Both the position numbers and the translations under genes were made by a program. Below, piece after piece: positions 5,701 to 50,625 of a DNA stretch of 64,000 nt. A model generated the notes under the pieces. It ran no database searches, had not been told where the DNA came from, and was given only the letters and a program-made list of their open reading frames with translations. The number at the start of each line of letters is the position of its first letter. Within the stretch, counting starts at the first letter, position 1. This DNA is from Branchiostoma floridae (Eukaryota; Chordata; Leptocardii; Amphioxiformes; Branchiostomatidae), in contig NW_023365775.1 in NCBI RefSeq assembly GCF_000003815.2, forward strand, positions 226,282 to 290,281, in the 5' to 3' direction.

Positions 5701-7305
5701 TTCCACAGACAATCAGGTTTAGGTCCGGATCCTGAAATGATACTCTGGTCCTGAAAGGAATTTTTGGCACTGGTAACTACTTACCACTACTAACAACTGA
5801 TGTTCTTTCACAATTTTTTGACCTTACGTTTATTTTGGCATTCTATGGCCTAAGTTCTGTGTTTTCTGATACTTTTTTTTTCAATCTGTGGCATATATGT
5901 GCTCATTTTACAACAGCTTTGCACAATTTACTGTGTAGTCAAAAACTTTTTTTGATACGGACGAAAATTGATACGAACGTGGATGCCATCCATATAATCA
6001 AATCAACATGGCCTAATAGAACATGAATGGTTAATAGATTATGTCATTACCCCGAAGACAATCGGTTGACTAAGGACATTGTGACATAGCATTAACTTAG
6101 CCACTGTACCTCAGATAAAGTGAAGTCAGTCAAAGAACAAAATACCCTAAATGGATTTTGACCTGGTATTTTTGTGACCCTCTTTCATGGCATTCGGCCT
6201 TAATGTTTTTTTTTTCAGATATGATTCTATTTCTCCGGAAGCGGTCATGAAAATGTGGCTATGAGTCTTCTGTTATCTATTGTTCAAAAGACAGCGGGCT
6301 ATAAACAAATTCTTGTTCGTGTTAACCAGCGGAATAAGATTTTTCCTGATGGTGACATGAACCAATTGAATGCATTCAAAGTGTGTGGAGCTGACTTTTA
6401 CAAAGCTCGTTTGTGTGCAGAGATAATGTCTAGAATACACTATGAATTCCCAGGAATAGAAAAGAATTTTCTGACGGCATTCTGATACTGCTTGATTCCT
6501 GTTATCCTTATGCAGACTGTGCGGGGGGGGGGGGGGACTGGTCTGAAAGGCATATTTTACAAAAGTCTCTAATTTGGTTTAAACAATGAAATTTTAAGAT
6601 TTTCTTGCTTAACTACACTTCTTTTCATATATCTTTAATATCTAACAGATCTTAGTGTGACATTTATCATTAAATATTCATCAATTATGCTAATGTCATG
6701 ACGTAATAGGTCAAAATCCTAGATGGCCGACAATATCATAATGAAAAGTATATACAGCTTATTTTCACTCGGAATTCATCTTTACTTGGTATTTTCTTAC
6801 AGAAAACATTTTAAGTGAACGTTTTTAATCCACTTTCATGTGATTTCAGGGTCTTATATTGAAAAATATGCATCTTAAGACAGAACATACTAGCTAAAAT
6901 ACACATGACATCATTTTATGACAGAAGTCTTATAACACTTAAATATTGATAAAAATATTTATTGTTAATTTTTGTGTGATATATTTAGGTTAGGTATTAT
7001 GGGAATTCCCCATTTTAGCCAAAAAAAATCAATTAATGACGTCATATTTGCGTCATATACGTCATAATGATATGGAAATTAAAGGAATTGTGTCAGTGCA
7101 ATCTTGATTGCTAGCAGATCAGAAAAAATTGTATATGCAGTGGTGTAAATCAATAAAACTGACGATAACACGAGCTTTCCACGAATGTCTAGTAAAACGT
7201 TTAAACATGAAATATAACTTTACCTTGGGCAGTCACAGTTGCTGTCGCCACAATCAGTACCAGGGCTGTCAGCTTGCAGAAACCGGATGTACACAGACCC
7301 GCCAT
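2612..7305 (-). CDS. Gene 1: signal peptide protein with two Trp/Tyr-rich repeat domains and C-terminal TM segment
   Basis: Model join(7305-7224, 4631-4317, 3719-3363, 2706-2612), 282 residues plus stop. Residues 1-27 are a signal peptide (MAGLCTSGF...TVTAQ). Residues 28-132 and 133-251 are two copies of one domain with the pattern YTMT..(D/Q)T..GRPVY.N...FLYY..D...W.VG...(W/F)(Y/F)L(W/Y)DG..W....V...C. The last 30 residues hold a hydrophobic run (about 257-274, VAWVVVLLNMAVVLA) and a short NNMTAKQP tail, so the protein is probably a type I membrane or lipid-anchored surface protein. All domain exons are phase 1-1. I recognise the domain as recurring in invertebrate secreted proteins but cannot name it or give a function. 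The donor after the first domain (GTTCGT) is weak; reading through it gives a stop three codons later, hence a possible 134-residue secreted form. The first exon is non-coding (10084-10158). Confidence 0.7.
2750..3110. repeat. Possible dispersed repeat
   Basis: Contains gcaactctatt, gcgccgttt and aataatgatgta in the same order as a stretch at 60770-60960, suggesting diverged copies of one interspersed repeat. The match is weak by eye. Confidence 0.3.
3363..3719 (-). CDS. Gene 1 exon 4: second Trp/Tyr-rich domain
   Basis: 357 nt, phase 1-1. Acceptor ...ttatttcag/ATGACG, strong donor GCCG/GTATGT. It encodes YTMTDQTSGGRPVYVNR, RWFVGQKIG and WYLYDGSSKQW, followed by ATC. It is paralogous to exon 3. 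Confidence 0.8.
3905..4045 (+). mobile_element. 5'-truncated tRNA-derived SINE fragment
   Basis: Begins with a box-B-like gttcgaatctcc and carries the core 'cactt..actcgggtgaaaatgagtacctagct', also seen in the SINEs at 51421 and 63561. It lies in the intron between the two domain exons of gene 1. Confidence 0.6.
4317..4631 (-). CDS. Gene 1 exon 3: first Trp/Tyr-rich domain
   Basis: 315 nt, phase 1-1 if the weak donor CTCTG/GTTCGT is used. It encodes GCPTVVLYGSTNLQ then YTMTGDTREGRPVYYSN, WCVGTQLVG and FFLWDGRQW, with Cys near both ends. Unspliced continuation gives ACSGS and stop TAG at 4311-4309; an AATAAA (complement near 4050) lies about 260 bp beyond, so a short single-domain secreted transcript is possible. 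Confidence 0.75.
4754..5541. mobile_element. Non-autonomous DNA transposon with CAGGG termini
   Basis: The ends are cagggttagacaag and the complement of cagggataaacaagt, and subterminal blocks repeat the motif 'cttgcccg.cgggcaagt' in both orientations. CAGGG ends are typical of hAT elements. I could not identify a clean 8-bp target duplication. It sits in intron 2 of gene 1. Confidence 0.55.
6540..7090. mobile_element. Dispersed repeat, same family as 57537-58336
   Basis: Long co-linear similarity to the element at 57537-58336, including aggcatattttacaaaa, tttggtttaaacaatg, gatggccgacaat and cagcttattttcactcgga. The terminal repeat of the family (AACCCTATCCAGACTG) is not intact here; a run of G (about 6523-6536) lies at its left edge. 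Confidence 0.7.
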
Positions 7306-7323
7306 TGTGACAGTGTTCACCAC
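7224..7323 (-). CDS. Gene 1 exon 2: end of 5'UTR and signal peptide
   Basis: Acceptor ...tttcag/GTGGTGAAC, ATG at 7305-7303, donor CAAG/GTAAAG, ending in phase 1. The peptide is basic/polar then hydrophobic (LTALVLIVATATV) with a likely cleavage near TVTA-Q. It is homologous at DNA level to the leader exons at 27482-27581 and 46874-46967. Confidence 0.85.
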
Positions 7324-7599
7324 CTGAAACACAAATAGTTGATTAGTGTACTGTGACTGCATCACATCCTTCTGTAAGATGACAATCTTGTTGATATAAT
7401 CACCAAACTCATCTTTAGCAAAATTTAAATGTCACGCTGATCTTCGATTTTGTATCTAAAGATGGCGCTTTTGAGCATGTTTCACCACTGAGCATAACCT
7501 TTGCTCAGGGCATTTATTCCGATTTTAATAAGGCGGGGAGAATGAAAAACGAAAACAGTTGCAAGACTGTTCTTAAAGTGAATATAAATTGAGTGAACT

Positions 7600-8010
7600 C
7601 CTGTACAAGAATGGACTCTTTGTGAGGCACTGCTCAATTTTTAATTGACCAGATCGAAAACCTGTCCATTTAAAATGGACATCGCATTTAATAACTCGGT
7701 CCATTTTTTTGTATGAACCCTATCTGCTTGACAATGGACTCTTTCATTGGTATCAGCATGTAAGATAAACCGGTCGGAAAAAATTATGATAAAAATGTGA
7801 AATTTTGAATCACCAACCCAGTTTAAAATATAATCATAAAAGAAATTACTCCTCCGTGAAGAATAGACCCCCTCATTTATACTCAGATCTTATGTAAAGT
7901 AAAGTACAGCACTCCAGACACGTCATCTAAAAAATTGGACTTTTGTCATAATCAACATAATCTAAAACAATCTTTTTAAAAAAATCCCTTCTGCAAAAAT
8001 GGACATTCAA
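7600..8010. repeat. Minisatellite, ~125-135 bp unit
   Basis: The motif 'aa(g/t)aatggactctt' or a variant recurs near 7609, 7732, 7861 and 7996. The same family forms a longer array at 23400-24020 inside the lipase gene. Located in intron 1 of gene 1. Confidence 0.6.
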
Positions 8011-8099
8011 GCGTGCATCGTACGCGTGTACTAATTGTAAAAAAATGAGCAGTTCCAAAACGTGTCCACTCATCACATGGTATTTTTTATAATGAATAC

Positions 8100-8520
8100 A
8101 GTCCACATGAACACACTACACCTTCGTAGCGTATTCTGAATTTTTGACTTCATTCCAGATATTCTTTTGGCCACATTCCGACATGATTCGAAGTGGCTTG
8201 CCGTTTCGTTTCTCCATCGAATAAGATAAGAATGTTTGGAATAATGTTGGAATACCGCAGAATGCGGTCACACTGCAGTTAGAATACACTTAGAGTCCAA
8301 TTCGAATGCCATTCGATATTTCTCCACTTCGCATGTACCCCGACAGTTTTTAACATGTCAAAAACGTTCGGGCCAGTCAAAAGAACGGGAAGATAGCTGG
8401 AATGCAGTTAGAATTTCTGGAAGACACTACGAATTGCCAGGAATTGCCAGGAATAGAAAATAATTTTCATTCCGACGGCATATCGGCCAATTCTTGCTCT
8501 CGTGTGAAGGGGGCATAAAT
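8100..8520. repeat. Possible repeat copy related to 6420-6480
   Basis: Shares 'ccaggaatagaaaa.aattttc' and 'gacggcat' with 6440-6480, and is rich in GGAAT/GAATAC words. No coding capacity was seen. Confidence 0.35.
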
Positions 8521-10083
8521 GGCGTCATGACAGCCAGAGTTCCACTCTAATGAGCTGGAAGGAAAACCTGCCAGAGGACGGATGCAATTGTCCTTTGTCC
8601 CTGGCCTGGGTCAGGCCGACAGACAAGTTGTTTTTGTATGTTGAAAACATAAAAGACTTGTCTAAGTTGATCGAGGGAGATCACTTAAGCTCCTTCGGTA
8701 TTTGAAACCAAGAAAAAGTTACAAAAGGCAGGGTGCCTGCTCTAACGTCTTTAAAAAAACCAAGCCGGTCTCAGATGAAACAAATACTGCAAACAATCAC
8801 GCAAAAAAATCTAGTTAAATCTTTAGTTGTATTTCTGGAGTAGTACTATTAACAACATCCCCACATCATATCAATGGCACTTGCGTCCACAGAGCTTTGT
8901 GATTTAGAAAAACCAAATGAAGACTTCAAAACGTAAGAACAAAGTGGTGCATGTTTGAGCACCCGTACGTTCAACCTTCGAATTTTTTAACTTCAGGCCA
9001 TTTTTGCACACAAAAAAAATAAAATAAAAATAGCTGACAAAACGAACGACACGTGTCCATCATTGTAGGCATTCTGATAACTTAGACGTATATGTAGACA
9101 TATCATGAAAAAGAGAAATTAACTTGCACTTATTTTGGGGAAACCATACTGCCGTTCTTTCTGCCGGTCGAAGAACACCTAGATGTCTGCCGGGCACTAA
9201 TAGGCTTATAGATGGTCGACCGAAGCTAAGATGGGTTTCATATGTCAGAGCTTTGTTTCATTCTCATTCTTTAAAAACATATCATTTTCTTTATAATAGG
9301 CGGAATGTGGTAGCATTTGGGTTGGTGTGTCACTAAATTTCTGCTCATGTAATCATTTTCAATGTGTCTATGTTCACTCATGCACTACAAATTTCTCCAC
9401 CTCACTTCTTCCCTATTCAGGATATTGAGTTTTACCTAGTAAGTCTATCCTGACTTCGTCTGTGTCTTCGAGGTCGTTGTTTGCAAGACGTCGCCTGAGG
9501 CACGTCCAATTTTAGACGGGACTGACGGTACCGTGAGAAATGTACGGTCGACGCTGGGGCTGTTTTGAAATATGTTTAACTTCAGCTTATCTAAAAAGTT
9601 GGCAGGTGTTTACTTAAAGAACATCCTATCGTCGAAAATATCAATTTAGAAGAAGAAAAGAACAAGAACCCCTTCAGTTTATAACGCCAGGATACGACTC
9701 GCGTTTTAGACGGGAGCCGCACATTCCTGTACCCGCCCAGCCATACGAGCGCCTCGACCTGAACCGGCGGTGAAAATGTCAAACGCTTTCAATTATCTAC
9801 AAAACAGGTAAAACCTCTGAACTCTCTTTTGAAAAGGGCAGCTGTGTAACTTGGTTTCAGCAGCGGTGGAAATTGAAAAACTTTGCAGGGAAAAGACATT
9901 TAATTTTGCGGACACAAGAAATGTTATCGGCCATTCCCCTTTAAAACAAAGTCGCACGTTCGAAAAAAAAAATAGTATTTCCCGATTTGTTTTAACTGCG
10001 TAAAAGAAGCAGAAACCCGCTAGATAAAATTGCCATCATGAAAAAATTGAAAAAAAATGTATGTGGAAGAGACAGGTACTTAC

Positions 10084-10158
10084 AGGTTTGTTTTGTTGTC
10101 GACGAAGTCGGTTGTGTCAGCTAGCTGTCCACTTTCCGACTGTACCGACGAACTGGGT
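10084..10158 (-). other. Gene 1 non-coding first exon (5'UTR)
   Basis: Donor AACCT/GTAAGT fixes the 3' end. The 5' end is inferred about 25-30 bp below the TATA box. The sequence is clearly homologous to 28952-29028 (shared blocks include GTCAACAACAAAACA-like and TCGTC.GTACAGT), the first exon of the lipase gene. Confidence 0.7.
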
Positions 10159-10345
10159 GTTAAGCATATTGATATGTTCCCATATATATAGCAGCCTATA
10201 AATAGTGTAAACGTCATTCTAATCAACTATTGTTGTTGTGATTTAACCAATCACAATCGTCATATTCAGAAATGTATAGGCAGGCGCAGTGATCACACCA
10301 CCACCAAACCTAATCACACCAGCCCTCATTATCGACGAAGTGGAA
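10159..10345 (-). promoter_or_regulatory. Gene 1 core and proximal promoter
   Basis: A TATA box (tatatata, 10183-10190) lies just upstream of the first exon. An inverted CCAAT box lies at 10247-10251 within tgtgattgg on the minus strand. Blocks shared with the lipase promoter include atatatatagcagccta, ccaatcacaa.cgtca, attcagaaat, tgatcac and ctcattat, so homology covers about 160 bp upstream of the start. Confidence 0.7.
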
Positions 10346-11100: not shown

Positions 11101-11104
11101 CAGG

Positions 11105-19262: not shown

Positions 19263-21053
19263 CTAAAGGCTCTGCCTCATGACCAAGATGAGGCACAGTA
19301 CTACAGAGGTCATGTTCATCCACAGGCTGAGACAATTCTGTCTCAGGAAGGAGGGCTGACCACTCCGGGAATCCCTGTCCCTGACGCCACATTCATAGTT
19401 GGCCGTGAGAGAGTAGTTCGTGTAGGCAGAACCTGAAAAAGAACAGAGGCACGACTTCACCATCAATCTCACAAACATTACTTGTTTGAATCTTTTTTAT
19501 TCATGAGATGCTCAAATCCGCCAGCAGGTCGCTTTTCATTGAGGTCATGAAGGAGGTAAGGGTCAGATAAATATAACTTAGATACAGATTACATTCACTC
19601 ACTCATTCACTCACTCACTTGCTCACGGCCCATAACCTCAGTGGTCGTAGGAACTCCACAACATCCGGTAGCAGTTGTACTAATAAATCGATCAACCTAT
19701 ATCACTACACATACATGGTACAACATATACAGTGGTGCAAGAAGCTCAGTGTTCATAACCCGTGTCCTTTTGTTTTGGTCATCACAACTACCAATGTAAA
19801 CTAAAAGTTGGGTGTGTAGGTTGTCAGAACCTTTTGACGTAGTATATAATGGCTGTGTTTAAGCAATCTCCAAGCAGATCCTACGGTGCCATAAGATAGT
19901 ATCAAAGCTGGCCAAGGAGTATAGACGGCCAAAGGGAGTCAAACGGGCACCGGGTCGCATACACACTCCTAGGCGGGCTTCACTCCTCTGCCAGCTTTTG
20001 GTACTATCTTCTGCTACCATAGGATCTGCTTGGAGGTATTCAAGAAGAGTCACCAAAATTATGAATTAGAGAAAGGATCCTTCCCTATTTTAATAAGTTG
20101 AACAAACAAATCATTTTTCAAGTTTTTGTTTATTTACCGATGACGGTTTCTACTGATGTGTCATGGCAGGGCTTCACTGTGTTCAGGACTGCCGTGACGC
20201 ATTTCAGGAACATCTCGTACTCGCTATATTATGGGAAGAGAGAGGAACAACCAAATTTACTTCTTACGGCAACTTTGTGTCTTCAATAATGTATTCTCTG
20301 ATGGAATCACTGATAAGGATATAGAAGTGCCCACGAGTGAGTTAGATACAGAAGACAGACCCCTCACTTCTGGGGAGTTGAGGACAGAGGCAGGTCAATG
20401 CCTTATGTTAGTAATAGCTTTTGGTTGATTAAGAGAGTTGGAAACATACTTCAAGAATCCGGCTCCTAAAAATACTAAAAAAAAAGTCATTGAACTTTGT
20501 CACTAAAACGGCTTTAGTAAAGTTGACGGCCGGACGACTGCTTTTTTAAGATCGATAACACTGCTGTACAATAGAGGGTGCCGATGTCTATGTCATGTTT
20601 TCGTTCGGATTTCGGTCGCGGTTTGGACTAAAACAAGGGAATCTTCTTCACCAACACAGATTGTAATTTAATGAAAGTACTGGCTTACCCATAATGCATT
20701 ATGATGTTTTTTTTTCAGTTTAACTTTCTGAAATGACTATTCTGTTTACCACTAGCTAGCTTGCAAAAATGGAAACATGGGTGACGCCAAGAGAATAAAG
20801 ACTTATTTTTAAGAGGCAAATGAAAACACAGAAAGCTATTGATGAGTGATTATCGCAGTTTTAGGGCAATAAAGTTTTTGCAATGTTACTGACCTGCAAA
20901 AGATCTCCTCTGCCACGTCGTCGCTCATGTTGTTGGTGTAGTTGACATAGACAGTCTCCATGGTGCTGACACAGCCCCCTATCACAGTCTGGTTCTGCCG
21001 TGTGAGGGACTGCAGACAGTACCTGCTGCGGTTACGCAGGGCCATGTCTGTCA
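19263..21053 (-). CDS. Gene 2 exons 10-12: Cys-rich C-terminal extension
   Basis: Exons 21053-20894, 20223-20138 and 19432-19263 are frame-compatible at every junction. They encode [58 protein letters not shown] and [10 protein letters not shown], then a hydrophobic tail. The spacing of Cys in amphipathic helices suggests a small helical disulphide domain. I do not recognise it as a named family; it replaces the usual PLAT domain. Confidence 0.75.
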
Positions 21054-27563: not shown

Positions 27564-27581
27564 GGTGACGGCGTACACAAC
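27482..27581 (-). CDS. Gene 2 exon 2: end of 5'UTR and signal peptide
   Basis: Acceptor ...tacttag/GTTGTG, ATG at 27563-27561, donor CAAG/GTAATG, phase 1. Peptide [12 protein letters not shown]... ends ATVAAQ. Homologous to leader exons at 7224 and 46874, including the UTR part. Confidence 0.88.
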
Positions 27582-28663: not shown

Positions 28664-28839
28664 TACTCTCCAAGCAGAGGTTAGGCTCTGGCTATTTTTA
28701 ACGCTTTTTTAGTCGTTTTCATCGGGCTTTCTATTTTGTATTTTCTCTTGCTGTGACCGGCCACAAAATAGAAAGCCCGATAAAAACGACTAAAAAAGCG
28801 TTAAAAAACAGCCGGAGCCTAACCTCTGCTTGGAGAGTA
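28664..28839. mobile_element. Inverted-repeat element (MITE), 176 bp
   Basis: Terminal repeats tactctccaagcagaggtta and complement, with arms continuing through aacgcttttttagtcgtttt; the fold is nearly perfect. Flanks show cagaggtt and cagaagtt, a likely 8-bp target duplication with one mismatch. In the 5' intron of the lipase gene. Confidence 0.85.
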
Positions 28840-28951
28840 CAGAAGTTTGAATTGTTCCCTAAATATGACTTTTTTTTCTATTTCTAGCTTAAGAAAGGAT
28901 TCCAAACGCGTCAGGTATTACAAGACAGAATGAAATGCATGTGGTACTTAC

Positions 28952-29028
28952 AAGTATGTTTTGTTGTTGACGCAGTCGGCTCTGTCACATAGGTGGCTAC
29001 TCTCCAACTGTACAGACGAGCTTGGTGT
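28952..29028 (-). other. Gene 2 non-coding first exon (5'UTR)
   Basis: Donor CATACTT/GTAAGT. The start is inferred from TATA position. Homologous to 10084-10158 along its whole length. Confidence 0.7.
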
Positions 29029-29216
29029 TTAGCATATCAACGTATCAACACACATATATATAGCAGCCTATTGATAGCGCAAACGTCACCCAATCGTCTA
29101 TTGTAGTAATAATTTGTCCAATCACAACCGTCAGATTCAGAAATATATCGTTACACCCACTGATCACGCCACACCACGGCTTTGTCACACCACCGCTCAT
29201 TATTAACGAAAGGAAT
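29029..29216 (-). promoter_or_regulatory. Gene 2 (lipase) core and proximal promoter
   Basis: TATA box at 29054-29061, inverted CCAAT box at 29118-29122, and the same ordered blocks as the gene 1 promoter up to ctcattatta.cgaa. The minus-strand GTTAATAAT resembles an HNF1 half site but is not conserved in the gene 1 copy. Confidence 0.7.
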
Positions 29217-35390: not shown

Positions 35391-38300
35391 TTAAGCTGCA
35401 AAAGAAATGATAATTAGTTGAAACCAAAGAAACAAAGGCATATAAATACAATAAGGTGTTAATAAGTTCATTATGACAGCTGCAAACGGCAATTATATTG
35501 CATTTGTGCTATACTGACACATGCCAAGTTCTACCTTGATGGTTCTTTCGATTAATAAAGGACCATGTCACACTCATCCTACATTCAAAACCTTTGGTCA
35601 TTCTTAAGAAATCCTTGCACTTAAATTTAACTGTATTGTTATCAGCAGTGTTGTAAAGACTCAAGATGGCATTATTGTATTGTCGCAGTTAAAAGTTGAG
35701 TTCAAAACAAAAAATACAAACTTTAAGGTCCATCAAAAAGTAGTGACTTTGATTTTAATAGTATCATTTGTCACCAAATGAGATGACATTTGGCACAAAG
35801 GTTACAGGATATATAACTTCTTTAGATTGAGATATTTAAATTGCTATTTGGATGTTTATGAGCGACTAAGTTGATCTCAACCCCGAAAGTCTGTCAGAAG
35901 ATATTAAGTTCTACTACATTTGATCAATTTACAATTATTACTGTAGGATGCTTAATTTAGGATAAATATATCTATGGGCTGCATATCAGTTCTGATCCCT
36001 GAAACCCCCAATAGTTCCTCTTGTACAGCTGTTCAGATGAAGTGAGGTAAGGGAATTATAGGCATTTGAACTCCTAGCCAAATACGTTTTTCATACGTTG
36101 CTCCACTACAGCGACGAAAAAAAAGAAAACTAGGTTGTATTTCAAAATTTAAAAAAGCATATACTTGTAGAGATAAGTATTTTGATATATGTCCAGTTTT
36201 ACATACAATAGCTAAAATGTAGCTCTTTTAATTTGCACGTTAATTGCGATACTCTTTGTCCCCGACAGACTTTCAAAGGTGTAGTCAATTTGAAATAAGT
36301 TAGTTATGATAATCTGGAAAACAAATTTAAATATTTACCTTCACATTCGTGCTTAATTTATCTCGATTCATGATAAAAAATGAGCGTGTTCTTAAATCAA
36401 CGGCATTATTTTTCGAATGACCCTCGTGCAAAATCTTTGTCGAACTGTCACTGCCTGCTTTCGAAACGTACGACGTCGATGTCCTACGCCAAATATGACA
36501 AATACGACAAATATGAAGTTCAGGAATACTCACGTATTTCACAAATGAAGCGGGAACGTTTCTTGCAGTTGACAAGAACCCACTTCTTGCGCACGCGGTG
36601 GATGAGAACGCAGTCCCTTTTCTTGTGACGCTTCGGTGGGCTGCGCTTGTTCCAGTTGCTGTAGTCGTTGGCGACGTCGAAATCCGTACCGTCGCTCCAC
36701 TTGAAATTTTTCTCGTCACGGTCGTCTAGTCCAATCCAAAAGTTCCTATGTGATGGAAAAGAATAAAAAGAATTAGTTACTCCTTTTCAAGAGGTAGAAA
36801 GAAAGGTAGAAGCCATATACATCAAGGCACTCCAGCCATCAATGAACAGAGTCGACGTCGGTGGGCGTTATAAACTTCAAAGCACGTTTAACTGATATTG
36901 CTGAAGTATCCGCAAGATAACGTTCTAATATTAATATCACATGTATGTAACTCGTGAGAGTTCACGTTCCGCAAATATTGGTCATTATTGACCACGAAGA
37001 AGAAGACGACAGTGAAGATTTGATCCGTGTACATATTTGCGTTGGAAGAAAGTTAGGCATTGTACCGTGACTATTTTTTATTTATCAATAAGAAATTGTT
37101 TGTTTTTTTTGGAAATTTGAAGTTAATTTGGAAATTTCTACAGGAATTCACCGAAGAAGATGTTATGCAAGATCAAATAACTCCCATGCTTTTGGCGTAA
37201 TATATTAGGCATGGCGTTCACTCTCTTAGATATTAAAAACAAACCTTCGTGGCAGGGTATTAGTATAGAGATTCTCAAGCCACTGTTGTTTGGCAGAGTC
37301 CTTGATCATCACAAGTCTGGCTTTGCGACTGTTGCAGAAGGTTTCGGCATCCGTGAAGCTTGTCCTGGTCATGGAGTACCAATGGCAATGGCCGTTGTAG
37401 ACAGCGAACGTGTCCGTCGGGAAGATGGGGTTTTGGAGATGACAACCTAAAAACATCAGTAAACGACTTTTTGATATTAGTTAACGTTGCAGAATATCTC
37501 GGCAGTCGTGAAGTTAGCGGTGGTCATGGAGTACAAATGGCAACGGGCGTTGTAGAAAGCAATTGTGTTCATTGGAAAGTTTTGATATTCGTAAAAGGAA
37601 ACTTCTGCATCTGCCTCATAAGGGGCAAAGTAGGGGCTAGGGGCAAAGTGGTTGGGGGGGGGGGGGTAGAATGACCACTGCAAAGTTTGATACAACCACA
37701 TCGGGAAGGACCCCTACTCTTTTCGATAGGTGTCATGGGTTCTATGACACGCTCTACGTATGCCTCTCCCCGACAACACACGGATTGGCAAAGCAGCCAT
37801 CGATGATGTCTTTGAAGGAAATGTACTCATGGCGTCCTTGGGCATACTGAAAACTGACTAAAAGTACAACAGTAACTGTGCATGTACAACGATATAACTT
37901 AAGTGTTACCTGGACAAGACGCTCCCGTGTCGCAGAGACGTGTTTCCTGCGTTTGTCCGACGCAGTCTGCCCCACCGTTCGCTGGTGCAGGATTGTTGCA
38001 GGTTCTGTCCCGAGTCTCCGTCCCGACTCCACACGTCACACTACAACCAGACCAGGCGGCCCAGCTGGACCAATCACCATCAACTACAGGAAACAAATAT
38101 CGATTCAACTATATCCCGCAACAAAATAACATCCGAAAATAATTTCATCAGGTTGGTAGAATTTTCTCTTACACAACCAGTTTATCTCACCTGCTGACGT
38201 TTCGATGTCTGCCAGACATCTTCGTCAGAGCTTCTAACTGGAGTTCTGCTTCTCGCCGATGTGGCGCTTTTGCGGCGAGAACACTATCCCAAACGTGGCT

Positions 38301-41300
38301 AAGCTTGTACCCCCCCCCCCCCACCTACATCGGCTACATATAGCGGTGAGAAGCAGAACTCCAGTTAGAAGCTCTGAGGAAGATGTCTGGCAGACATCGA
38401 AACGTCGGCAGGTGAGATAAACTGGCTGTGTAAGAGAAAATCGTTATGTCCAACAAAAAATAAATAAAAACGCCCCTCGGGAACGTAAACTTGTCCGTTG
38501 CCATGGTAATGGAAGAAAGGTTGACGGCAAAATCACCGATTTGCATGTAGAGGACTGTATTGCTCTATTTTCATTCACAGTTCACTTAAGAGATGTATCT
38601 TGAACGAGATATCTTAGTGTTACCTGGACAAGACACCCCAGTGTCACAGTTTCGTGTCCCTTCTGCTAGTCCGACGCAGTCTGCCCCACCGTTCGCTGGT
38701 GCAGGGTTGGTGCAGGTTCTGACCCGAGTCTCCGTCCCAACTCCACACGTCACACTACAGGCAGGCCATGGGCCCCAACTGGACCAATCGCCATCAACTA
38801 CAGGAAACAAATATCGATTCAACTATATCCTGCAAAGTACGATACAACAAAAATAACAATAGAAAAACCCCTCGGGAACGTACACTTGTCCAAGGTACAC
38901 GGCAAAAGCACATCAAGTAATGTACTGCTTTGTTTTCATTCACACTTCTCGTAAGAGATGTGCCTTGAAAATGGCGGAATGTTACTTTTTGGTAGAAGAA
39001 CACAGTATTTTTTTGGTAGAAGAACGATCAATGATGTAGGCGTAAAAATGTAGTGCGGCCGAAATCTGGGAGCGTCTGAAAACACTGTAACGTGAAAGAT
39101 GGCAGGACATGAGCTTTGCTCTATGGCAGTATAACGAGACGACTTTCAGATCGTACGTATAAGATCGTGGTGTTTGCCCATTCCGTGCATCAATGTGCGT
39201 GACCTTTACAGCTGACTCCCTCTTCGAGTCGGCTGCAATTCCACATGGCTCAAAAAGGCCTTGGGGGGGAGGGGGGAGTTGATTTGGTCAGTTATACCCT
39301 GGACTTTAACATACTAGTTTGTCGTACCTGAAAAATGAACTCTACTATGATTTTATCAGCGTCAACAGTGGCTCTTGGGAAACATCTGGGAGATTACTTT
39401 CTTTTTTTACTTCTGGCGGTGATAATTTGATACAAAACATGTGCTACAAATGTTGTTACAAACATGTCAATCATTGAGGCGACACTGCGTATAATTGCAC
39501 ATACCTATAGTTATCTGACAGATGAATCCCCTGGTGTCGCTACACTGTATATCATTCCAGATGTGCGCGGTACCAACAACTATGACGCAGTCTTCGTCAC
39601 CACCTTCATCGTTCGGTTCACCGGGGTTCCAGTTGTTATAGCCGGTTGATGCCAGGGTTTGGCCGTCTTCAAACACCCATTGACCTTCGTCGTTGCGGTC
39701 AGTCAACCCGATCCAGCGTACATCGGTTGTTCCTCCCAGCTCGTTGATGAAAGTGTTGGTCGCGCTGTCCTTCGGCATGGCCAACAGGCCCCAGTCTTCC
39801 GCACACGTCTGTCTGGCCTCATCGTACGTCTTCTGCTCAGCAAAGTCCTTGTAGCAACCCGTGTTAAACCTGACATAGCCTGCTGGACACGCTGTAGAAA
39901 AAAAATAAAACGACAGTAGATGGCTTGATGACAGATGTATATACCATACACCAACTGCCTTCAAGTATACAAATACGACTTATCTAACCACGTTACATCC
40001 ACTAACATCATAATATTTGTTTGATTTACAAAGGCTCGATACAAAGTTAACACGACTGTCGGCAGTGGAAAGAAAAAAAAAATAGAATTACAAATTCCTA
40101 GAATAAGAATTTTATGACCTGTACTGGAACTCATGGCAGTGTACACATCGTAGGCAGTGAGATGCGTGAAATTGTGTTTGGGACATTTGTCGAATGGGTA
40201 AACAATAGAATACTTGCGATGCGTTCGCTTCAGGCTTAAAACCTTCGGACATTTTTTTTTCTCTTTGTTCAATATGTTCTAGTTAAGAATTGTGAGTGGC
40301 GGATTCCTAATCTTTGAGTTCCACTACGGGTGTAGTGTAAAGGCCAGAGCTTTTACAATTCCATCAAGACTAATTGGCTTTTTTACATTGGAGTCTGTGG
40401 GTGATATTTTGACACAGGAAATGGACAACATGTACAAACCAACTATTATAGAAAACGTATCACTAGAAATCGTCAATATGTAAACATGGCACATACCTAA
40501 CTGACAAACGAATCCCATAGGCCTTTCACACGGTACATCATACCAGTCGTGACCTGTATCAATAACTTCGACGCAGTCTTCGTTACCAGCGTTGTTCGGC
40601 TCACCGGAGCGCCAGTTGTTGTAGCCGGCTGATGCCAGGGTTTGGCCGTCGGCAAATACCCATTGACCTTCGGAGTTGGCGTCAGTCAAACCAATCCAAC
40701 GTGGACCGGATGTTCCTCCCAGCTCGTGGATGAAAGTGTTGGTCGCGTTGTCTTTCGGCATGGCCAGCAGTCCCCCGTCTGTTTCGCAAGTCTGTCTGGC
40801 TTCCTCATACGTTATCTCCTCGGCAAAGTCCTTGTAGCAAACTCCATGAAAACTTGTGTAGCCTGGTGCATGACACACAAGTTCTGTACAAACAATTAAC
40901 GATTTTAGGTGACCGAAGACAGGTTTTCTTCATCACCAACAAATTAAAATTTTGAGCTGTTGCAATTATAATAATAATTCTATAGTCCTTCAGGCGTCAC
41001 TTATGGCAAAGTTGATTTGAATTTCAAATAGATATATTCTTGAATTGGGGAAAGAATATGCCATATGTGAGATAGTCGTGCTGAATGGGACGAAAAGGGT
41101 TCATAGCGCAACATCTCACTCGTATTTTGTTTTCAAACAAGTCGTATAGCCTGATGTTACAATTATGAACTTCTGTGACCGCTGTATCACTGATATTGCA
41201 TTCAGTGTTAACGCTGGTTCATTTGATTCACAGCTGGTGTCTTTAGATCTAGGTCAAAAGGTCAACATAATACAGCTGGAATTATTGGGCTATTGGAAAA

Positions 41301-44300
41301 CAAGACTGGTTTCATGAAGATAGCTTAAGTGAATCTGATGATAGACGAAGGGAGATGCTAACTATGTAAAAAAAGAGCTAATTTGCATAATTGATGAAAT
41401 CCGATGCATTCTTTGATAGTACAGGTTGCACTATGTGTCATCTGTCACTGAGAAAGAAAGGTATATCGATAAATATCAATTATGCAAATAAGAACATCAT
41501 TTGAATGATAAATGAGAAGAAACTTTAATACTATGTTGGTAATCGATAGGAATTTTTACCATCGCCAAAAACAGTTTACGGTATGTCTTTGGTTGTGCCA
41601 TGGTGGAGTGGCTACAGTGTGGTTATGTATGTACATGTATGTCATCAGAATTTATAAAAAAGCTAAGTGAGACCTTAGACTTACAGTCCCGAATAAAGAC
41701 ACTATCCATAACACGTCTTGATTATTTGGCGAAGGTATGTTTTGGTGATTAATTATCTTTTGCATGATTAATTTGGACATCTATATTTGCAGGAGGACTC
41801 GAATGAATGTAAAATATGTGGTTTATGGCAAGTGGAACCCTAACAGATATCAATAATGCTTAAACGTTCCTAATTTGCATAATTGTTGCAAAAATACCAT
41901 CCATAACTAGCAGATGATTGAAATGTCAAAAGTTTAACTAGTTAAAGTCCGTTAAAGGTGCATTTTGTTTAGCATTGATGTTGATGTGGAAGTCATTTCC
42001 ACAATCAGATTATGCCATGGAGATAAAATGTGTCCGAATCCCTAATGGCGAAGGAAACAACGCACCCGTGTAAGAGAACTCGAACCCCCGACCCGCAATG
42101 CTGCCGTCAGAGGTAAACCTCACGAACATCTGGTTAGATGTGCTGGTGATGGGGTTGACTGACGACAACTGTCCGGTTAAGCTGGGAATCAAAATAAAGG
42201 ATTATTGTTTCTGTTTGTGTTGCCATGGCCATTGAATATGGAAGCTTTGGATTTTTTATTCTAAAGCTACTATCGCTCTCTTGATTCTGCAGCTACTCTC
42301 ACTCTCAACTCTCACTCTCTGCATTATCAAAACTTCTCTACTCGGGATAAAGCTCTTTGGCCGTTCAAGACATTACCTCTGTAATTCTGTAGTACCATCA
42401 CTGCCTCCATCGTAGATGGTCAAAAAGTCGAAACCGTCCTCGAGGTCGAAGCTGTCAATCGAAAGAAGAACCGTGCTTCCTTCTGGCACAGTGATCGTCC
42501 AGTCACAGGTCTCATCGTTGCCGTAGTTATCGGGGTAGTTGGGTGACGTCACAGTACCTCCAGGGGGAGCCGTCAGGACACCTCCACATCCTGGAGCACT
42601 GGTCGGTGATTCTATGTGTGGCGGGGATACATGATATAAACGGTCAACTGCAATATGTATATTAAAGGTCAGAATTTCTCCAACTCTGTCGTCTTTTTTT
42701 CAGTTTACACGGATATCCACATGACTTTTGCTTGTCAAAAGTCATTTTGATTTTATTCTGGCCCAGGGATTTGTATTACACTGTATGTCAACCCGCCAAT
42801 ATTTCTTGGTGGTAACAAGATTTCCATAATTCAATGTCGTTTGTTCAGTGTGTATTTTCGTCCCATTTTATTTTGAAGGCAGGTAAAATACTTATATTGA
42901 ATTTAACAACAACAAAAATTCCTCATATATGAAAAAAAGGTTAAATTTTGGTCACCTAGCGACTTGTTACGGTACTGCAATTAAATATTTTAACATTTCG
43001 AGTTATGGATCTGCTATGGTCTGCTATGATAACTCATGAAGGATATGTTGACGGTTCGTCAGTATTTTTACGTAGGTAGCCTAATTATAAGTGATAACGC
43101 ACATGATATATTTATAACCTTCGCCAAAAAGGTTATATTTTGGGTAGAAAAATTGTGTTTTATCTTTATATGTAGGTCTACAGCATATATATCGAGAAGT
43201 GGAGTATGGATTTTCATGATATTTGGATTTTGAGTAGCGGTTGCGAAAAGGAAGGTCGAAAACAACAGCCTTATCAATTGAAACTGTAACACGTAGACAG
43301 AAGTTTATTTATCATCACTTTGAAATCTCTTTTTAAATAGGCACCGATACGTAGCAAAATACAACTCAAATCAATTTGTGTACTTAATTGCTTTTCTAAG
43401 TTGTCAATCTTAATATGTTACAGCAGTAAAAAAAAATTGATTCACCAAGACAGGGCACCCCCGTGTCGCATTGCCTTGTCTCCTGGGTTTCTCCGACACA
43501 GTCTGGTGCAGGATTGGTACAGGTTCTGTCCCGAGTCTCCGTCCCGACTCCACACGTCACGCTACAGCCAGACCAGGCGGTCCAGTTGGACCAACCGTCA
43601 TCAACTACATAGTATATGAAGAAAGACGGTATTTGAAGAAAAAAAATGTTGTGCAGGTTTCTATTGTACAGGTGGTGCGAGATTAATGTTTATACAGATG
43701 ATTCGCTCCAGATGCCCCAGTCTGTGCCTTGGGACTTTCAATGGGCTACTTAGGGTCACCATTGTCAATCGACCTTGAGGCGATTAATCTCCTAAAAAAA
43801 CATCCCTTTCACCCATATGAGGATGAATTCCACTTTGTCATGGATTATTCTAAAATTAGTTGCTGTCATACATTGTACCGTGTGCAATTGTCGTGCAATA
43901 AAGTTCATCTATTCATTCATATACTGTAACGGCATAGACAGTCCACATCAGAGACAAGGGGTGTCTATGACAGCAACGAAAAGTTGATGATATGGATACA
44001 TGAGAAACAAGAGTTCGGAGACCTCATACCGCCATGAAATATTCTGATTATGCAAATGACTTGCACATATGCATAATTCATGTCTGATTATGTACACATT
44101 TATCTAACTAGCACAGGTCACAATGCTTACAATCCAATCATTTACTACTTGCTCTTAGAATAATTATGACACTTTCACGTTGATTATATAAATTGGTGTT
44201 TTAATTATTTGTATAATGGGCACCTGCTGATATTCCACCTGTCACGAATTACACGTTACATGTATTTGAGTCCTATAGTGTAAAATACTGTGCACATTGA

Positions 44301-46949
44301 TTTTCTTCATAAAGTATGTAAGTTAAGTCCAAATTTGCATAATTTGCACTTCATTATGTACATCTCTGCTAAAGATACCAGCATGCTGAATATCCTGGAA
44401 ATCTGTCCTTCCTATGTTCCGTTTTGCTCTTTGGAACATTTTGACCAGAATGCCCCTGCAGTTACAGAGCAAGCCGCTAGGGGGTACAAACATACATTTG
44501 TACATCACTTCTTCCTTACATCACAAGCTACCTGCCACCAAAAAAATCAAGACCATAGCATATCTAGCTCAAAAGATACACAAAAAAAATCAAAATTTAG
44601 CTGCAATACCAAGGTCACACACCATGGGGCCGAAAATCGACCCTGACCTTCGTTTTACAACACCTTCCCATATACGAAATATGATAGCAATCCATCCGGA
44701 GGTAATGGTGACCACAAATATCCGGAAACACAAACACTCAGACAGACAGACACACTAAAAACTATACCTCCATTTTTCACGGAGAAAAAAAGTTCTAAGT
44801 AAGAGTAGTTGGTTAAAACAAGGAGATTAAAAGCAGAACTTCTCAAAATACCTCTGGCACAGAAGGCGTACTTGTCTTGCTGTCCATTACCAATGACGCA
44901 CCAGCTTCCCGACTCTGCGCCACAGGTGGCACCACTATTATAGTTGTTCATGAACTGGTACACGCCGTGCAGCTGTGAGCAGCCGCCTGGATTAGTACCA
45001 CACAGCTGCTGGGATACTTCACCCATGGGAGCGCTACAGATCACCAAGCCTGTTTGGAAGCACGAGGAGGAGGAGAACGAGCAGGCGCTGTCCCCGGGAC
45101 ACGGCGTCACGTACCCCGCTGCCTCACACGTTGCCTTCACGTTGGCCGATGTCATCTCTCCGGTTACAGGTACCTTGTAGTAGTGCCAGCCATTGTAAGC
45201 TGTGAGATATGAGGTATCTCGTTCTATAAACAGATAAAGAAAAAAATGTTAACCAAAAACTCTGAAAAAATCACCTTGGACTTTGCCTTATTGCCCCCCC
45301 CATAAAATACTATTCTGTAATATTACTGAGTTAGTCAAAAAGCACAAGCGTCAATTGATCGTATCCATCATACGTTGTTTCAATATGAATATGGAGATGT
45401 CCAAGTCATAAGTTCACACAATCCTGGTAAGTGTGCGAAGTCAAGTCAATGTATATTGTGCAGTAATTGTAACAATGAGTACAATGTTTAGCTGGGTCTG
45501 AGAAGTTGGCCAACAAGAGATGTAAACTTCAAAATACTTTGACATGTAAAGAACCACAGCTTACTATATTATGGTATTAGACATAGTATAAATGAGCCAA
45601 GGAACAAAACATGAGCAGTAAATTTGTCGTTCCCTTCTTCAGTTATCCTACTTAGAATATTTTCAAAATAATGCCACTGCAGTTTCAGAGCAACCTGCTA
45701 GGGGGCCCAAATGTACACCACATATCTTTTATGTCACAAGCTATCTGCCATCCAAAAATCAAGACAATAGCACATTCAGAAGATAAAAAACGAATTTTTG
45801 CTGCAGTACCAAGGTCACATATCAGGGGGCCCAACATTGACCTTGACCTTTGTCTTCCCAACACCTACCCTCAAACCAAATATCATCGTAATCCATTCAG
45901 AGATTCTTGAGTTATGCTCACTACAAAAATCTGGTCACACAGACAGACACACAAACAGACAAACCCAAAACTATATCTACATTTTTTATAGAGATAAATA
46001 TCATTACAATTACGTGTTCTGTTCTGGAGATATTGCCGGAAACTCCCCTTCTACACACTCCCATGCCACTGTAAACATAAAACAGATGTCACAGCTGTCC
46101 CCATTAAGACGACCAGATCACTCCATATCAAGAAAAGGGGTGAAACTACTACTGAAATCAGTACACAGTATTCTACTGGGCCGCCGCTTAAAACGTGTTA
46201 GGAACGCGCCTGTGTGAAGAAAGGTGTATTTCGGTAATCATGTTTTAACCATACCACGGTGAGGATTTGGGTTTATTATTTACTGGCTAAAGAGGATGGG
46301 GAGTAAGAGACGTTAAAACCATTGACCCCGCACCTGGATGCTGCCTCTTGCACATGTGTCCTTCGCAGCGAATAGCCTTTATCAATATCCTGAGAAGGAT
46401 TCGTCAGCCAATCAGCTAGCCTGATATATTTTGGGGGAGTCTATTCATGTACGTTTTATATGCTTCAATCCATAGTTTAGGTCTGTACATATTGAGTGAA
46501 GATAAGGACATCCTCGGGACATGTTCGGTGCTAAAAGATGGGCGTGGCCTTAATCTAGTTACGTCACATTTCCAAACCGGGGCCCGGCCGGGATATTTAA
46601 ATACACCAAAAATTAAAACGTATACCTAGAAATATACACAAATTACGCCCATGAATCGTATGTTGATATTTTGTGTACTTTGATGTCTTTTGTATCATTC
46701 TTATCCCTCCTTAAAGCTGTAGGCCCGGGCCCCCGGCTTGGACCTCCCGACCTTCCGCCCACCATGTTTGGGTAGTGAGCGCAATATTTGGGGAATCGGA
46801 TATGTTGTTTGTCGTTTAAGAGATAATGGGCCTCTCTATAGAGGTCTGAAAATGTTTTTGAAGGTGACGTTACCTTGGGCATTCACTGTAGCAGTCGTTA
46901 CGATCAGCACCAGGGCCGTCCACTTCCAGAACCCTGGTGTACACGCCAT
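35391..46949 (-). CDS. Gene 3: secreted mosaic lectin (Cys-rich, TSP1, CUB, CTLD, CTLD, TSP1, TSP1, CTLD)
   Basis: Model join(46949-46874, 45223-44852, 43604-43446, 42611-42377, 42181-42066, 40883-40497, 39891-39505, 38797-38624, 38083-37910, 37446-37245, 36745-36534, 35395-35391), 832 residues plus stop; every domain enters and leaves in phase 1. Residues 1-25 signal peptide; 26-149 Cys-rich domain; 150-202 TSP1; 203-319 CUB; 320-448 and 449-577 C-type lectin domains with EPN motifs; 578-635 and 636-693 TSP1; 694-831 a lysine/arginine-rich CTLD without EPN. No TM segment follows the last domain, so the protein should be secreted. Likely roles are glycan binding and protein-protein contact in the extracellular space, by analogy with lectin/CUB/TSP1 proteins; the ligand is unknown. 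An exon could be missed in the longer introns, but none is needed for frame. Confidence 0.82.
36534..37446 (-). CDS. Gene 3 CTLD-3 (two exons), basic, EPN-less
   Basis: Exons 37446-37245 and 36745-36534 join in phase 2. Conserved CTLD landmarks: [41 protein letters not shown] and RFICEI. The region that normally carries EPN and WND reads [13 protein letters not shown] and [18 protein letters not shown], so the calcium site is absent and the surface is strongly positive. Confidence 0.85.
37484..37592 (-). pseudogene. Relic duplicate of the CTLD-3 N-terminal exon
   Basis: The minus strand reads [12 protein letters not shown] then [20 protein letters not shown] before a stop, matching the functional neighbour ([25 protein letters not shown]). 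The second half is missing. It sits in the intron just upstream of the functional exon. Confidence 0.7.
37910..38083 (-). CDS. Gene 3 TSP1-c
   Basis: 174 nt, phase 1-1: [40 protein letters not shown] and [26 protein letters not shown] is the TSP1 signature. Confidence 0.93.
38161..38441. mobile_element. Foldback element between two TSP1 exons
   Basis: Arms start attttctcttacacaaccag and run about 105 bp through gatgtctgccagacatcttc and tggagttctgcttctc, with the complement at 38346-38441. The centre contains a C run. Confidence 0.85.
38624..38797 (-). CDS. Gene 3 TSP1-b
   Basis: 174 nt, phase 1-1: [34 protein letters not shown] and [11 protein letters not shown]. Close paralogue of the TSP1 exons at 37910 and 43446. 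Confidence 0.93.
39505..39891 (-). CDS. Gene 3 CTLD-2
   Basis: 387 nt, phase 1-1. [62 protein letters not shown] and GFICQ. EPN plus WND suggests calcium-dependent mannose-type sugar binding. Confidence 0.93.
40497..40883 (-). CDS. Gene 3 CTLD-1
   Basis: 387 nt, phase 1-1, same length as CTLD-2. [55 protein letters not shown] and GFVCQ. EPN is present; WND is replaced by WYD. Confidence 0.92.
40900..42060. other. Gene 3 intron stretch, no exon seen
   Basis: Intron between the CUB and the first CTLD. Several 'aatttgcataatt' / 'attatgcaaat' words occur here and at 44040-44340, probably pieces of a dispersed repeat. Confidence 0.35.
42066..42611 (-). CDS. Gene 3 CUB domain (two exons)
   Basis: Exons 42611-42377 and 42181-42066 join in phase 2. 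[64 protein letters not shown] and GRGFEFSYT are standard CUB landmarks. 117 residues. The donor TACACGG/GTGCGT ends in phase 1. Confidence 0.92.
43446..43604 (-). CDS. Gene 3 TSP1-a (short form)
   Basis: 159 nt, phase 1-1: [32 protein letters not shown] and [11 protein letters not shown]. Five residues (ANGGA) present in the other two TSP1 exons are missing between NPAP and DCVG. Confidence 0.9.
44440..44770. mobile_element. Dispersed repeat, copy A
   Basis: Shares 'accaaggtcaca', 'cctgaccttcgt', 'aatccatc', 'acagacagacacac' and 'actata.ct.catttttca' in order with 45660-46000. It flanks the Cys-rich exon. Confidence 0.7.
44852..45223 (-). CDS. Gene 3 Cys-rich N-terminal domain
   Basis: 372 nt, phase 1-1, 124 residues: [76 protein letters not shown] and KYAFCARG. 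The pattern NG..YY....G.MT..NV...C.AAG..TPC.G...WC..GN....YA.C is one I associate with invertebrate multidomain secreted proteins, but I cannot give a family name. Confidence 0.82.
45660..46000. mobile_element. Dispersed repeat, copy B
   Basis: Second copy of the 44440-44770 repeat, on the other side of the Cys-rich exon and in the same orientation. Confidence 0.7.
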
Positions 46950-46967
46950 GGTGTCGGTGTACATCAC
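46874..46967 (-). CDS. Gene 3 exon 2: end of 5'UTR and signal peptide
   Basis: Acceptor ...actaacag/GTGATG, ATG at 46949-46947, donor CAAG/GTAACG, phase 1. Peptide [17 protein letters not shown], then TTATVNAQ. An in-frame ATG 15 nt upstream would add MYTDT; the downstream ATG matches the homologous exons better. Confidence 0.87.
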
Positions 46968-47039: not shown

Positions 47040-47850
47040 ACTAGAAAGGCCGACATTTGCTTGAAAGCAAATACAGCATATTTCAGCCATCTCCCTTATG
47101 CAACAATAGGCCTTGAGGTCGTTGACCCCTTTGGCCATTGGAAAATGACCCCAAAAATTCCCAAATATATCATTTTAAAATGTTCCATGCCGAAAATTAT
47201 ACATGGGTCATTTGGATAGATATCTAGAGCACCCCTTTACCAAATTTCGGATCATTTGGTTGTAAAACGAGGGAACAGGAGCCAAAAATGTCCTATTTTT
47301 GTCAAAAAATGGCCATGAAATCGCAATATTAAGCATTATGTTGTACTGTATGGAAAAACTGTTATTGAATTTATGTGCACATAATTGAAGGGCACTTTTA
47401 TACCGAATTTCAGGTCATTCGGTTGTAAAACGAGGGTACAGGAGGCAAAAATGTGCTTTTTTTGTAAAAAAAAAATGGCCAAAAATCGCAAAATTAAGCA
47501 TTTTGTTGTACCGTATGCCAAAACGGTTATTAAATCTGGGTGGTCATATGATCAGGGCACCTCTGTACCAAATTTCATGTCATTCGGCTGTAATACCAGG
47601 GTACAGGAGCCCAAAATATACATAAAAATTGACAAAAACCTCAATAAAATCATTTTAAAGGCAGATATGAAAAAAAATTTAAAAAAAAACGCCTGAGGTT
47701 ATTAGCCTACTCTACCTTTGTGCCAAATTTCAAGTCAATCGGTTTAAAAACGGCGGAGTTGATTCGATTTGAAGATTTGCCAGGAGAAAGAAAGAAACAT
47801 TACGAATATAATATATTTCACCATACCTATGGTTTTGCTGAAATATAATG
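47040..47850. mobile_element. Dispersed DNA element, ~0.8 kb
   Basis: Intact-looking copy of the family also at 23229-24890, with tatttcagcc at the left and its complement near the right end. In the 5' intron of gene 3. Confidence 0.75.
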
Positions 47851-47939
47851 AAATGTAACTCCGATCCCTCACGCTATTGTATCGGCAGGTGGCGCTGTCG
47901 AGCAGGTCTGTAAAGGTAATCCTATCTCTTTCCCATGGG

Positions 47940-48370: not shown

Positions 48371-48409
48371 TTTTTTGTGATTTGACTGTGAACAATTGCT
48401 CATTATAAG

Positions 48410-49261: not shown

Positions 49262-49790
49262 TCCCAACCGAGGTGACTAATACCAGAACGTCGGCGAATC
49301 ACCCGACCTTCGCCCGAACAAAAACAAAGAAGAACCCGCATGTTCGGCGCTAAAAGATAGGCGTGGTCTAAATCTGGTATCAGCCGGTATTGGCGTCCAA
49401 AGTGACGTAGATGTCAACAGCATAGCGATGAAATCCGCGACCAAACGCCAGTATAGCGATGAAATCAGCGACCAAAATATTAGTATTAGTTACCGAAGTG
49501 ACGTAGATTTCAACAGTATAGCAATGAAATCCGCGACAAAACGTCAGTATAGCGACGAAATCAGCGACCAAAGTACCAGCATTAGCTACCGAAGTGACGT
49601 AGATTTCATCAGGATAGTGATGAAATCCGCGACCAAAATGCAGTATTAGCTACCAAAGTGACGTATAGCGATAAAAATCCGCGACCTAACGCCAGTATAG
49701 CGATGGATTCCGCGACCAAAGTACCAGTATTACCAGTATTAGCAACCGAAGTGACGTAGATTTCTTCAGCATAGTGATGAAATCCGGGGC
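49262..49790. repeat. Minisatellite block B (duplicate of block A)
   Basis: The same flank as 47940 followed by a longer array of about 96-bp units (tagcgatgaaatcagcgacc, accgaagtgacgtagatttc). The plus frame 49428-49649 stays open because the unit is a multiple of three; it is not a gene. Confidence 0.8.
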
Positions 49791-50069
49791 GTGGAATTCA
49801 AAAGCATATTCAGTACATAATAACAGTTTAACTTGGAGGGCAGTGGACATCTTGCGGCGAATGAAACAGGACCGTACGTGCGCAACAAACTATCCACGCC
49901 ATTTTTGTGCTTAAGTCGCTAAATTGTCGAAGGGGATGAACGAAACAGTGACAAATACGGGTGTTAAGATTAGAGAGAAAAAAAACCTAGACCATATACA
50001 TAGCGTGTCATTCTTGTAGAAGGGCATGTGGAAAATTGCCTTCCTAGTATTATCCAAGCTTGGATAATA

Positions 50070-50320
50070 CCTTTCTGGTAACTTTGAATTAGTCATTCTG
50101 TCACTTAGAAATTACAACAAAAATCCTGACCACTACTATCTACGACAAAACCTCTGCTTGGGGTAATATCGTTCTGATACTTTTGAATTAGTCATTCTGT
50201 CACTTAGAAATTACAACAAAAATCCTGACCACTACTATCTACGACAAAACCTTTGCTTGGGTAATACCGTTCTGGTACTTTTGAATTAGTCATTCTTTTA
50301 CTTAGAAATTAGAACAAAAT
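50070..50320. repeat. Tandem repeat, ~98 bp unit, 2-3 copies
   Basis: 'gaattagtcattctgtcact' at 50086 and 50185 and a variant at 50283. It ends right beside the gene 3 exon 1 donor. Confidence 0.85.
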
Positions 50321-50327
50321 GTTTTAC

Positions 50328-50392
50328 CTTTACGAATTTGAAGCAGTCAGCTCGGTCTGCATGCCGCGACCCGTTCTTCAGACTGAGCCGAA
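50328..50392 (-). other. Gene 3 probable non-coding first exon
   Basis: Donor CGTAAAG/GTAAAA. The 3' part (gagctgactgcttcaaattc) resembles the gene 2 exon 1 end (gagccgactgcgtcaacaac). The start is inferred from TATA position. Confidence 0.5.
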
Positions 50393-50625
50393 AGTACAAC
50401 CGCCTGACAACTTATGTTTATAAGATCTAAGGGGTCATCAGATATTAGGTCGCTTTGCCGACGGTAGAGCAAGGAGAGCTGTGATTCGTCCATCTCCCTG
50501 AGGTCACCTTCCACTCCCAACCCACCTTTCTCACACACGTTTTTCATTTTCATTATTCAATTCGCACAACCTAAATCATGTCACCAAATCGTTTGCATAT
50601 ATTTTGTCCAATCACAGTGCTGCGG
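50393..50625 (-). promoter_or_regulatory. Gene 3 probable promoter
   Basis: TATAAA on the minus strand at 50422-50417 and an inverted CCAAT box at 50608-50612 in the context tgtccaatcaca, identical over 12 bases to the lipase promoter (29116-29127). The spacing between the two is larger than in genes 1 and 2. Confidence 0.5.

Follow-up and report, generated by a model that had tools for sequence, protein, structure and literature searches.

Three genes lie in tandem on the minus strand of a 64,000-nucleotide stretch of the genome of the amphioxus Branchiostoma floridae (contig NW_023365775.1, here C217:226282-290281; the whole stretch is referred to as the window). They share homologous leader exons that encode a signal peptide and carry unrelated ectodomains. 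The 5′ parts of these genes were compared within the window and used in searches of the genome assembly (513,431,437 bases in 431 contigs). Taken together, the results make it very probable that duplicated 5′ modules were recombined onto unrelated ectodomains, giving rise to a family that would be recognisable only by its 5′ end.

The three genes in the window

The leader exons are located at 7224-7323 (gene 1), 27482-27581 (gene 2) and 46874-46967 (gene 3, 6 bp shorter). That of gene 1 comprises the end of the 5′ untranslated region (UTR), the signal peptide MAGLCTSGFCKLTALVLIVATATVTAQ and a phase-1 donor, and all three exons have an AG acceptor, a GT donor and a phase-1 end. As the original prediction had claimed, the exons are homologous in the 5′ UTR end, the signal peptide and the phase-1 donor. 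Their pairwise identity is 74-76% (E from 1e-17 to 6e-13 in BLAST comparisons within the window), and the similarity ends 9-18 bp beyond the exon. The prediction would have been refuted by a resemblance no better than that between random signal peptide exons; the pair scores (275, 273 and 255) were more than twice the maxima reached by codon/UTR shuffles (127, 125 and 117; 2000 shuffles per pair) for all three pairs.

The putative promoter and non-coding exon 1 of gene 1 occupy 10075-10345, with the exon ending at 10084, a TATA stretch at 10182-10190 and an inverted CCAAT box at 10247-10251 (both read from the sequence). Homologues of this region occur genome-wide, and within the window its counterpart in gene 2 lies at 28943-29216. 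BLAST aligned 10075-10339 with 28943-29210 at 76% identity over 270 bp (E 1.6e-47), and the alignment score of 871 compares with a maximum of 302 among 500 shuffles. The TATA stretch, the inverted CCAAT box and a GTAAGTA donor are conserved between the two promoters, in agreement with the claimed homology of about 260 bp. The similarity ends near the donor, and no match at E 0.01 was found between the introns separating exon 1 from the leader exon in genes 1 and 2 (BLAST within the window).

The 5′ region of gene 3 (50328-50625) had been described as a more diverged version of the same module. When aligned with permissive gaps, it did not exceed shuffles in either comparison (score 227 with gene 1, shuffle maximum 329; score 270 with gene 2, shuffle maximum 294). 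Under stricter scoring, two blocks, which occur in the same order in gene 2, emerged: a CCAAT block (~50580-50616), whose score was reached by none of 2000 shuffles and none of 598 genomic stretches, and an exon-1-end block (~50338-50357), whose score was reached by 1 of 2000 shuffles. Against gene 1, these blocks were matched or beaten in 1303 and 351 of 2000 shuffles, respectively, i.e. there was no signal. The description therefore stands with respect to gene 2 and falls with respect to gene 1.

The predicted products are those expected: a repeat-domain protein without a Pfam match, a pancreatic-type lipase and a lectin/TSP1/CUB mosaic. In gene 1, the repeat domains X1 (4317-4631) and X2 (3363-3719) are each encoded by a single symmetrical phase 1-1 exon without a Pfam match, X1 having a homologue on contig C164. 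The last coding exon (2612-2706) translates into a hydrophobic C-terminal tail, probably of transmembrane or glycosylphosphatidylinositol type.

The predicted coding exons of gene 2 span 19263-27367. The pancreatic-type lipase (Pfam Lipase) is encoded by exons of mixed phase at 27066-27367, 26489-26614, 26129-26231, 25009-25125, 22941-23060, 22251-22350 and 21574-21704, which are followed by a Cys-rich part and hydrophobic tail at 20894-21053, 20138-20223 and 19263-19432. The product matches human pancreatic lipase 1lpa with E 9.7e-84, in an alignment that includes the GHSLGAH, GLDPAEP and His regions, which hold the catalytic triad. A PLAT domain is usual in pancreatic lipases; none was detected by Pfam in the C-terminal part of the gene 2 product (19263-21053).

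In gene 3, the first ectodomain exon encodes a Cys-rich domain, K (44852-45223, no Pfam match), and further predicted exons span 36534-43604. These encode (i) a first TSP1 domain at 43446-43604 (Pfam), (ii) a CUB domain (Pfam) with one exon near 42377-42620, the acceptor of which is approximate, and a second at 42066-42181, (iii) C-type lectin domains at 40497-40883 (from repeat similarity and reading) and 39505-39891 (Pfam), (iv) TSP1-like exons at 38624-38797 and 37910-38083 (from repeat similarity and reading), and (v) a last C-type lectin at 37245-37446 plus 36534-36745 (Pfam). The exons of K and the first TSP1 are symmetrical (1-1). Structure predictions for K and X were unusable, with mean predicted local distance difference test values of 43.6 and 40.7, respectively.

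Leader and promoter copies across the genome

A genome search with the leader exon and the promoter had been proposed as a way of finding further members of the family, and it yielded 14 leader places and 11 promoter places. Both counts are lower bounds, the search scoring first-pass candidates only. A 28-amino-acid leader query identified four places on C217 (three of them in the window), two on C164, one on C11 and seven on C3; a second, divergent query returned the same 14 and a third query 12 of them. No other place was found at E≤10 with any of the three queries in the genome, which means that they do not pick up signal peptides in general. On the strength of these sequence comparisons, the leader family is real, genome-wide and well above chance.

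Twelve of the 14 leaders are referred to as intact, the other two being without an ATG. DNA identity among the intact copies is 66-91%, and conservation of the family extends beyond the signal peptide into the 5′ UTR end. Ten of the 12 end in A-Q; cleavage after that Ala would put glutamine at the mature N-terminus. Outside C217 and C164, which are two short contigs, seven of the eight leader places are on C3, a contig that makes up 6.7% of the genome. Counted as clusters, five of six are on C3, for which the chance is 7.5e-6 (calculated post hoc, with the pattern already seen).

The first post-leader exon has a phase-1-compatible acceptor at all 12 intact loci, these acceptors having been picked by eye at loci several of which also contain AGs of other phases. 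Nine or more kinds of first domain stand behind the intact leaders (X, lipase, K, Ig, SRCR, F5/8C, EGF, olfactomedin and C-type lectin). The gene at C164:248 kb resembles gene 1, with X twice and then a C-type lectin exon, while Pfam assigned EGF and VWA to C164:267 kb, EGF to C217:138.7 kb, Ig (with ShK also present) to the C11 gene and Ig, together with FN3 and ZP-N, to C3:16.17 Mb. The remaining C3 members, also according to Pfam, encode SRCR followed by F5/8C (C3:33.573 Mb), F5/8C over two exons (C3:33.605 Mb; E 0.026 for the first, which is below the cut-off, and 5.9e-7 for the second), and olfactomedin, ZP-N, TSP1 and FN3 (C3:0.326 Mb). The gene at C3:7.59 Mb carries C-type lectin twice, FN3 and, by reading, a hydrophobic stretch with a tail.

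Two types of repeats were observed in the introns. An element with a tandem unit of 163-165 bp is present at 24161-24889 (intron of gene 2) and 47111-47848 (intron of gene 3), the two copies being 81% alike, and a long array of the same unit fills the leader intron of C3:33.605 Mb. A fold-back element with 85% inverted arms (28664-28839) is located in intron 1 of gene 2 and recurs 5′ of the leader genes on C11 and at C3:7.59 Mb.

The search with promoter 1 returned 11 places (12 rows), namely genes 1 and 2, a further site on C217 and eight sites on C13, C14 and C145, with a GTAAGT donor in the alignment at all 11. The C217 copy, which is 84% identical over 147 bp, is on the same strand as the EGF gene at C217:138.7 kb and 14 kb upstream of it; strand and distance are the only grounds for assigning it to that leader. 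With a profile built from promoters 1 and 2, hits were obtained upstream of three leaders, at a distance of 2.7 kb from C164:248 kb (48.5 bits), 1.8 kb from C164:267 kb (23.2 bits) and 5 kb from C3:16.17 Mb (26.5 bits), the best score in a 1.05 Mb shuffled and reversed control being 5.8. Seven of the 12 intact leader genes have promoter/exon-1 evidence, including the weak blocks of gene 3.

Copies of the promoter and exon 1 also form clusters, with at least three on C14 within 10 kb and at least four on C145:130-154 kb (24 kb). Downstream of two promoter copies without a leader, and on the same strand, Pfam identified a TMEM26 gene at 2.4e-54 and a PLAT domain at 1.9e-6. Tandem TMEM26 genes were considered as owners of the C14 cluster, and this was rejected: no second TMEM26 was present in the 3.5 kb read.

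Histories of 5′ ends and ectodomains

The two leader genes of C164 lie 19 kb apart on one strand. They have 2927 bp of 5′ DNA in common at ~70-89% identity, including the intron and upstream sequence and reaching 98 bases past the leader ATG; downstream, the match is limited to 197 bp. The ectodomain region of C164:248 kb has 1411 bp in common with gene 1 (exons 86%, introns 73-78%), and on the 5′ side BLAST matched these two genes in the leader exon only, with 0 bp outside it. In its sequence, C164:248 kb thus has a front like that of C164:267 kb and a body like that of gene 1. The 5′ DNA shared with its neighbour and the ectodomain shared with gene 1 indicate that the two parts have separate histories, and the break lies within the ~2.5-kb leader intron. 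This discordance is visible in the DNA without any gene model. The promoter tree also pairs the two C164 genes, with bootstrap support of 97% for the core and 100% for the full promoter (200 replicates). Between genes 1 and 2, no downstream similarity was found, nor a conserved 3′ exon.

The explanation that we favour assumes two homologous 5′ modules, i.e. the TATA/CCAAT promoter with non-coding exon 1 and the 94-100 bp phase-1 signal-peptide exon. These would have been duplicated locally and intrachromosomally, and afterwards joined to unrelated phase-1 ectodomain exon sets by ectopic recombination in leader introns, which phase-1 compatibility would permit. The shared promoter would initiate transcription, exon 1 would be spliced to the leader exon, and the leader would be spliced in phase 1 to whichever ectodomain comes next, the product entering the secretory pathway. 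The genes would presumably have their expression in common as well.

The original prediction had assumed one cassette that acquired different phase-1 exon sets. Related 5′ ends at 12 loci, at least nine kinds of ectodomain and the discordance described above agree with this, but the unity of the cassette does not hold, its two parts looking separable. No promoter copy was detected with the promoter profiles in the 6.1-8.6 kb upstream of five of the 12 intact leaders, and no leader was found within ~8 kb downstream at the four promoter sites read of the eight other sites. The best leader score at these four was 7.0 bits, compared with 83.9-107 for the 12 intact leaders, whose match is by construction. 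The promoter and the leader seem to form modules that can be separated rather than one fixed cassette, a term that overstates their unity, because the promoter module occurs without a leader at all four other sites read.

Besides this apparent separability, several further observations weigh against the explanation by duplicated and recombined modules. All splices, including that from leader to ectodomain, are predicted only. The gene 3 promoter weakly resembles that of gene 2 only, through two short blocks, and the almost identical leader copies at C3:3.69 and 3.74 Mb, both without an ATG, look degenerate. The 5′ ends of gene 1 and C164:248 kb are, as judged from their sequences, related too, more distantly: the profile identified a core-promoter/exon-1 block of ~130 bp with 73% identity over 124 columns. 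The leader tree differs from the promoter tree, placing gene 2 with C164:267 kb (support 65) and C164:248 kb with C3:16.17 Mb (68), and in the tree of all 14 leaders support is below 35 at 6 of 11 nodes.

Among the other explanations, the one that fares best, although we consider it unlikely, is that a transposable element constitutes or has carried the 5′ module, supplying ready-made promoters and signal exons. It is consistent with promoter copies on four contigs in the genome search, plus C164 and C3 by profile, with their local clustering (at least four within 24 kb on C145, at least three within 10 kb on C14) and with the recurrence of repeats near the cassettes (the fold-back element at 28664-28839 and the 165-bp satellite at 47111-47848). 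In addition, alignment of the copy at C14:5867257 continues into the intron for ~0.8 kb (67% identity). However, the high copy number of such an element was not observed: the copy number is low, with at least 14 leader and at least 11 promoter places. Moreover, the similarity of the leaders ends 9-18 bp beyond the exon, and that of promoters 1 and 2 near the donor.

Considerably less probable is the duplication of whole genes, the ectodomains of which diverged past recognition with no exon exchanged. The tandem arrangement of the window genes on one strand and the location on C3 of seven of the eight leader places outside C217 and C164 would fit such a history, as would the cases in which leader and ectodomain class are both common to two genes (Ig in C11 and C3:16.17 Mb, F5/8C in the two C3:33.6 Mb genes). 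Nevertheless, the ectodomains represent different Pfam families, and leaders are still 66-91% identical, yet genes 1 and 2 are without downstream similarity. The C164 pair, in which kilobases of non-coding DNA match on the 5′ side but no more than 197 bp downstream, points in the same direction, and the C164/gene 1 discordance already contradicts whole-gene duplication, unless it results from misassembly.

The least probable explanation is that the leaders are merely ordinary signal peptides, which are short and hydrophobic, or that the leader-ectodomain joins are gene-model artefacts, in the sense in which Banyai and Patthy argue that lancelet domain novelty is probably due to gene-prediction errors (PMC4967905), but the 28-amino-acid queries return only the family from 513 Mb at E≤10, the UTR end is conserved too, and the 5′/ectodomain discordance is seen in DNA that needs no gene model.

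Neighbouring features and related systems

On the plus strand of the window, an open reading frame (ORF) at 60330-60644 encodes an H-type lectin domain (Pfam 2.3e-14), and is preceded by coiled-coil-like and hydrophobic ORFs. The plus-strand ORF at 62110-63561 encodes 483 amino acids with a coiled-coil-like middle part, and has no Pfam match above the cut-off (478 amino acids scanned).

The nearest described case of a family of this kind is that of the WFDC/semenogelin/SPINT3-5 genes of human 20q13. According to PMC3209443, their signal-peptide first exon is conserved, the products are unrelated and the second exon is in phase 1; uptake of exons into a regulatory frame was proposed, and the 3′ exon is also conserved. 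The amphioxus leader genes are similar in having a homologous signal exon, unrelated secreted products and a phase-1-compatible acceptor (12 of 12). They differ in that whole multi-exon modular ectodomains vary from gene to gene where one product exon changes in the human genes, and in that genes 1 and 2 show no 3′ similarity, whereas the human 3′ non-coding exon is described as conserved. Furthermore, the amphioxus members are found on several contigs and have promoter/exon-1 homology that is partly separable from the leader; the word "promoter" is absent from the main text of PMC3209443. Because the 3′ exon feature is missing between genes 1 and 2, we do not file the amphioxus family in the WFDC/semenogelin/SPINT type, though the two are alike in working.

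A conotoxin superfamily consists of genes with a common signal sequence. Within such superfamilies cysteine frameworks can differ, and recombination of a mature exon onto another signal exon has been suggested (PMC3862624). Conotoxins are small peptides of one venom, in contrast to the lipase, lectins, Ig, SRCR, olfactomedin, EGF-VWA and other modular proteins of amphioxus.

For the lancelet genome itself, a bias toward 1-1 phases, promiscuous domains and exon shuffling have been reported in PMC4284660 and disputed in PMC4967905. The former deals with coding exons and domain pairs, whereas in the leader family the 5′ regulatory and secretion modules themselves would have been exchanged; the term "signal peptide" is absent from its main text. 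No amphioxus family of this type was described in the titles and beginnings of abstracts among the matches listed, subscription papers being outside the scope. Because the discordance between 5′ ends and ectodomains needs no gene model, the disputed question of whether novel domains of lancelets are genuine or artefacts of gene prediction can here be tested from DNA alone.

A more general proposal, which we put forward tentatively and judge to have slightly less than an even chance, is that amphioxus has a two-part 5′ platform, consisting of the promoter with its untranslated exon and of the signal-peptide exon, which can pass from gene to gene separately from the gene bodies. Such a platform would bring enzymes, lectins, Ig, scavenger-type and membrane proteins that are unrelated to one another into a common programme of transcription and secretion, and its promoter part alone may also be captured by non-secreted genes. 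If this is true, exon shuffling in lancelets would include 5′ regulatory and secretion modules, and a set of unrelated effectors could gain one expression programme in one step.

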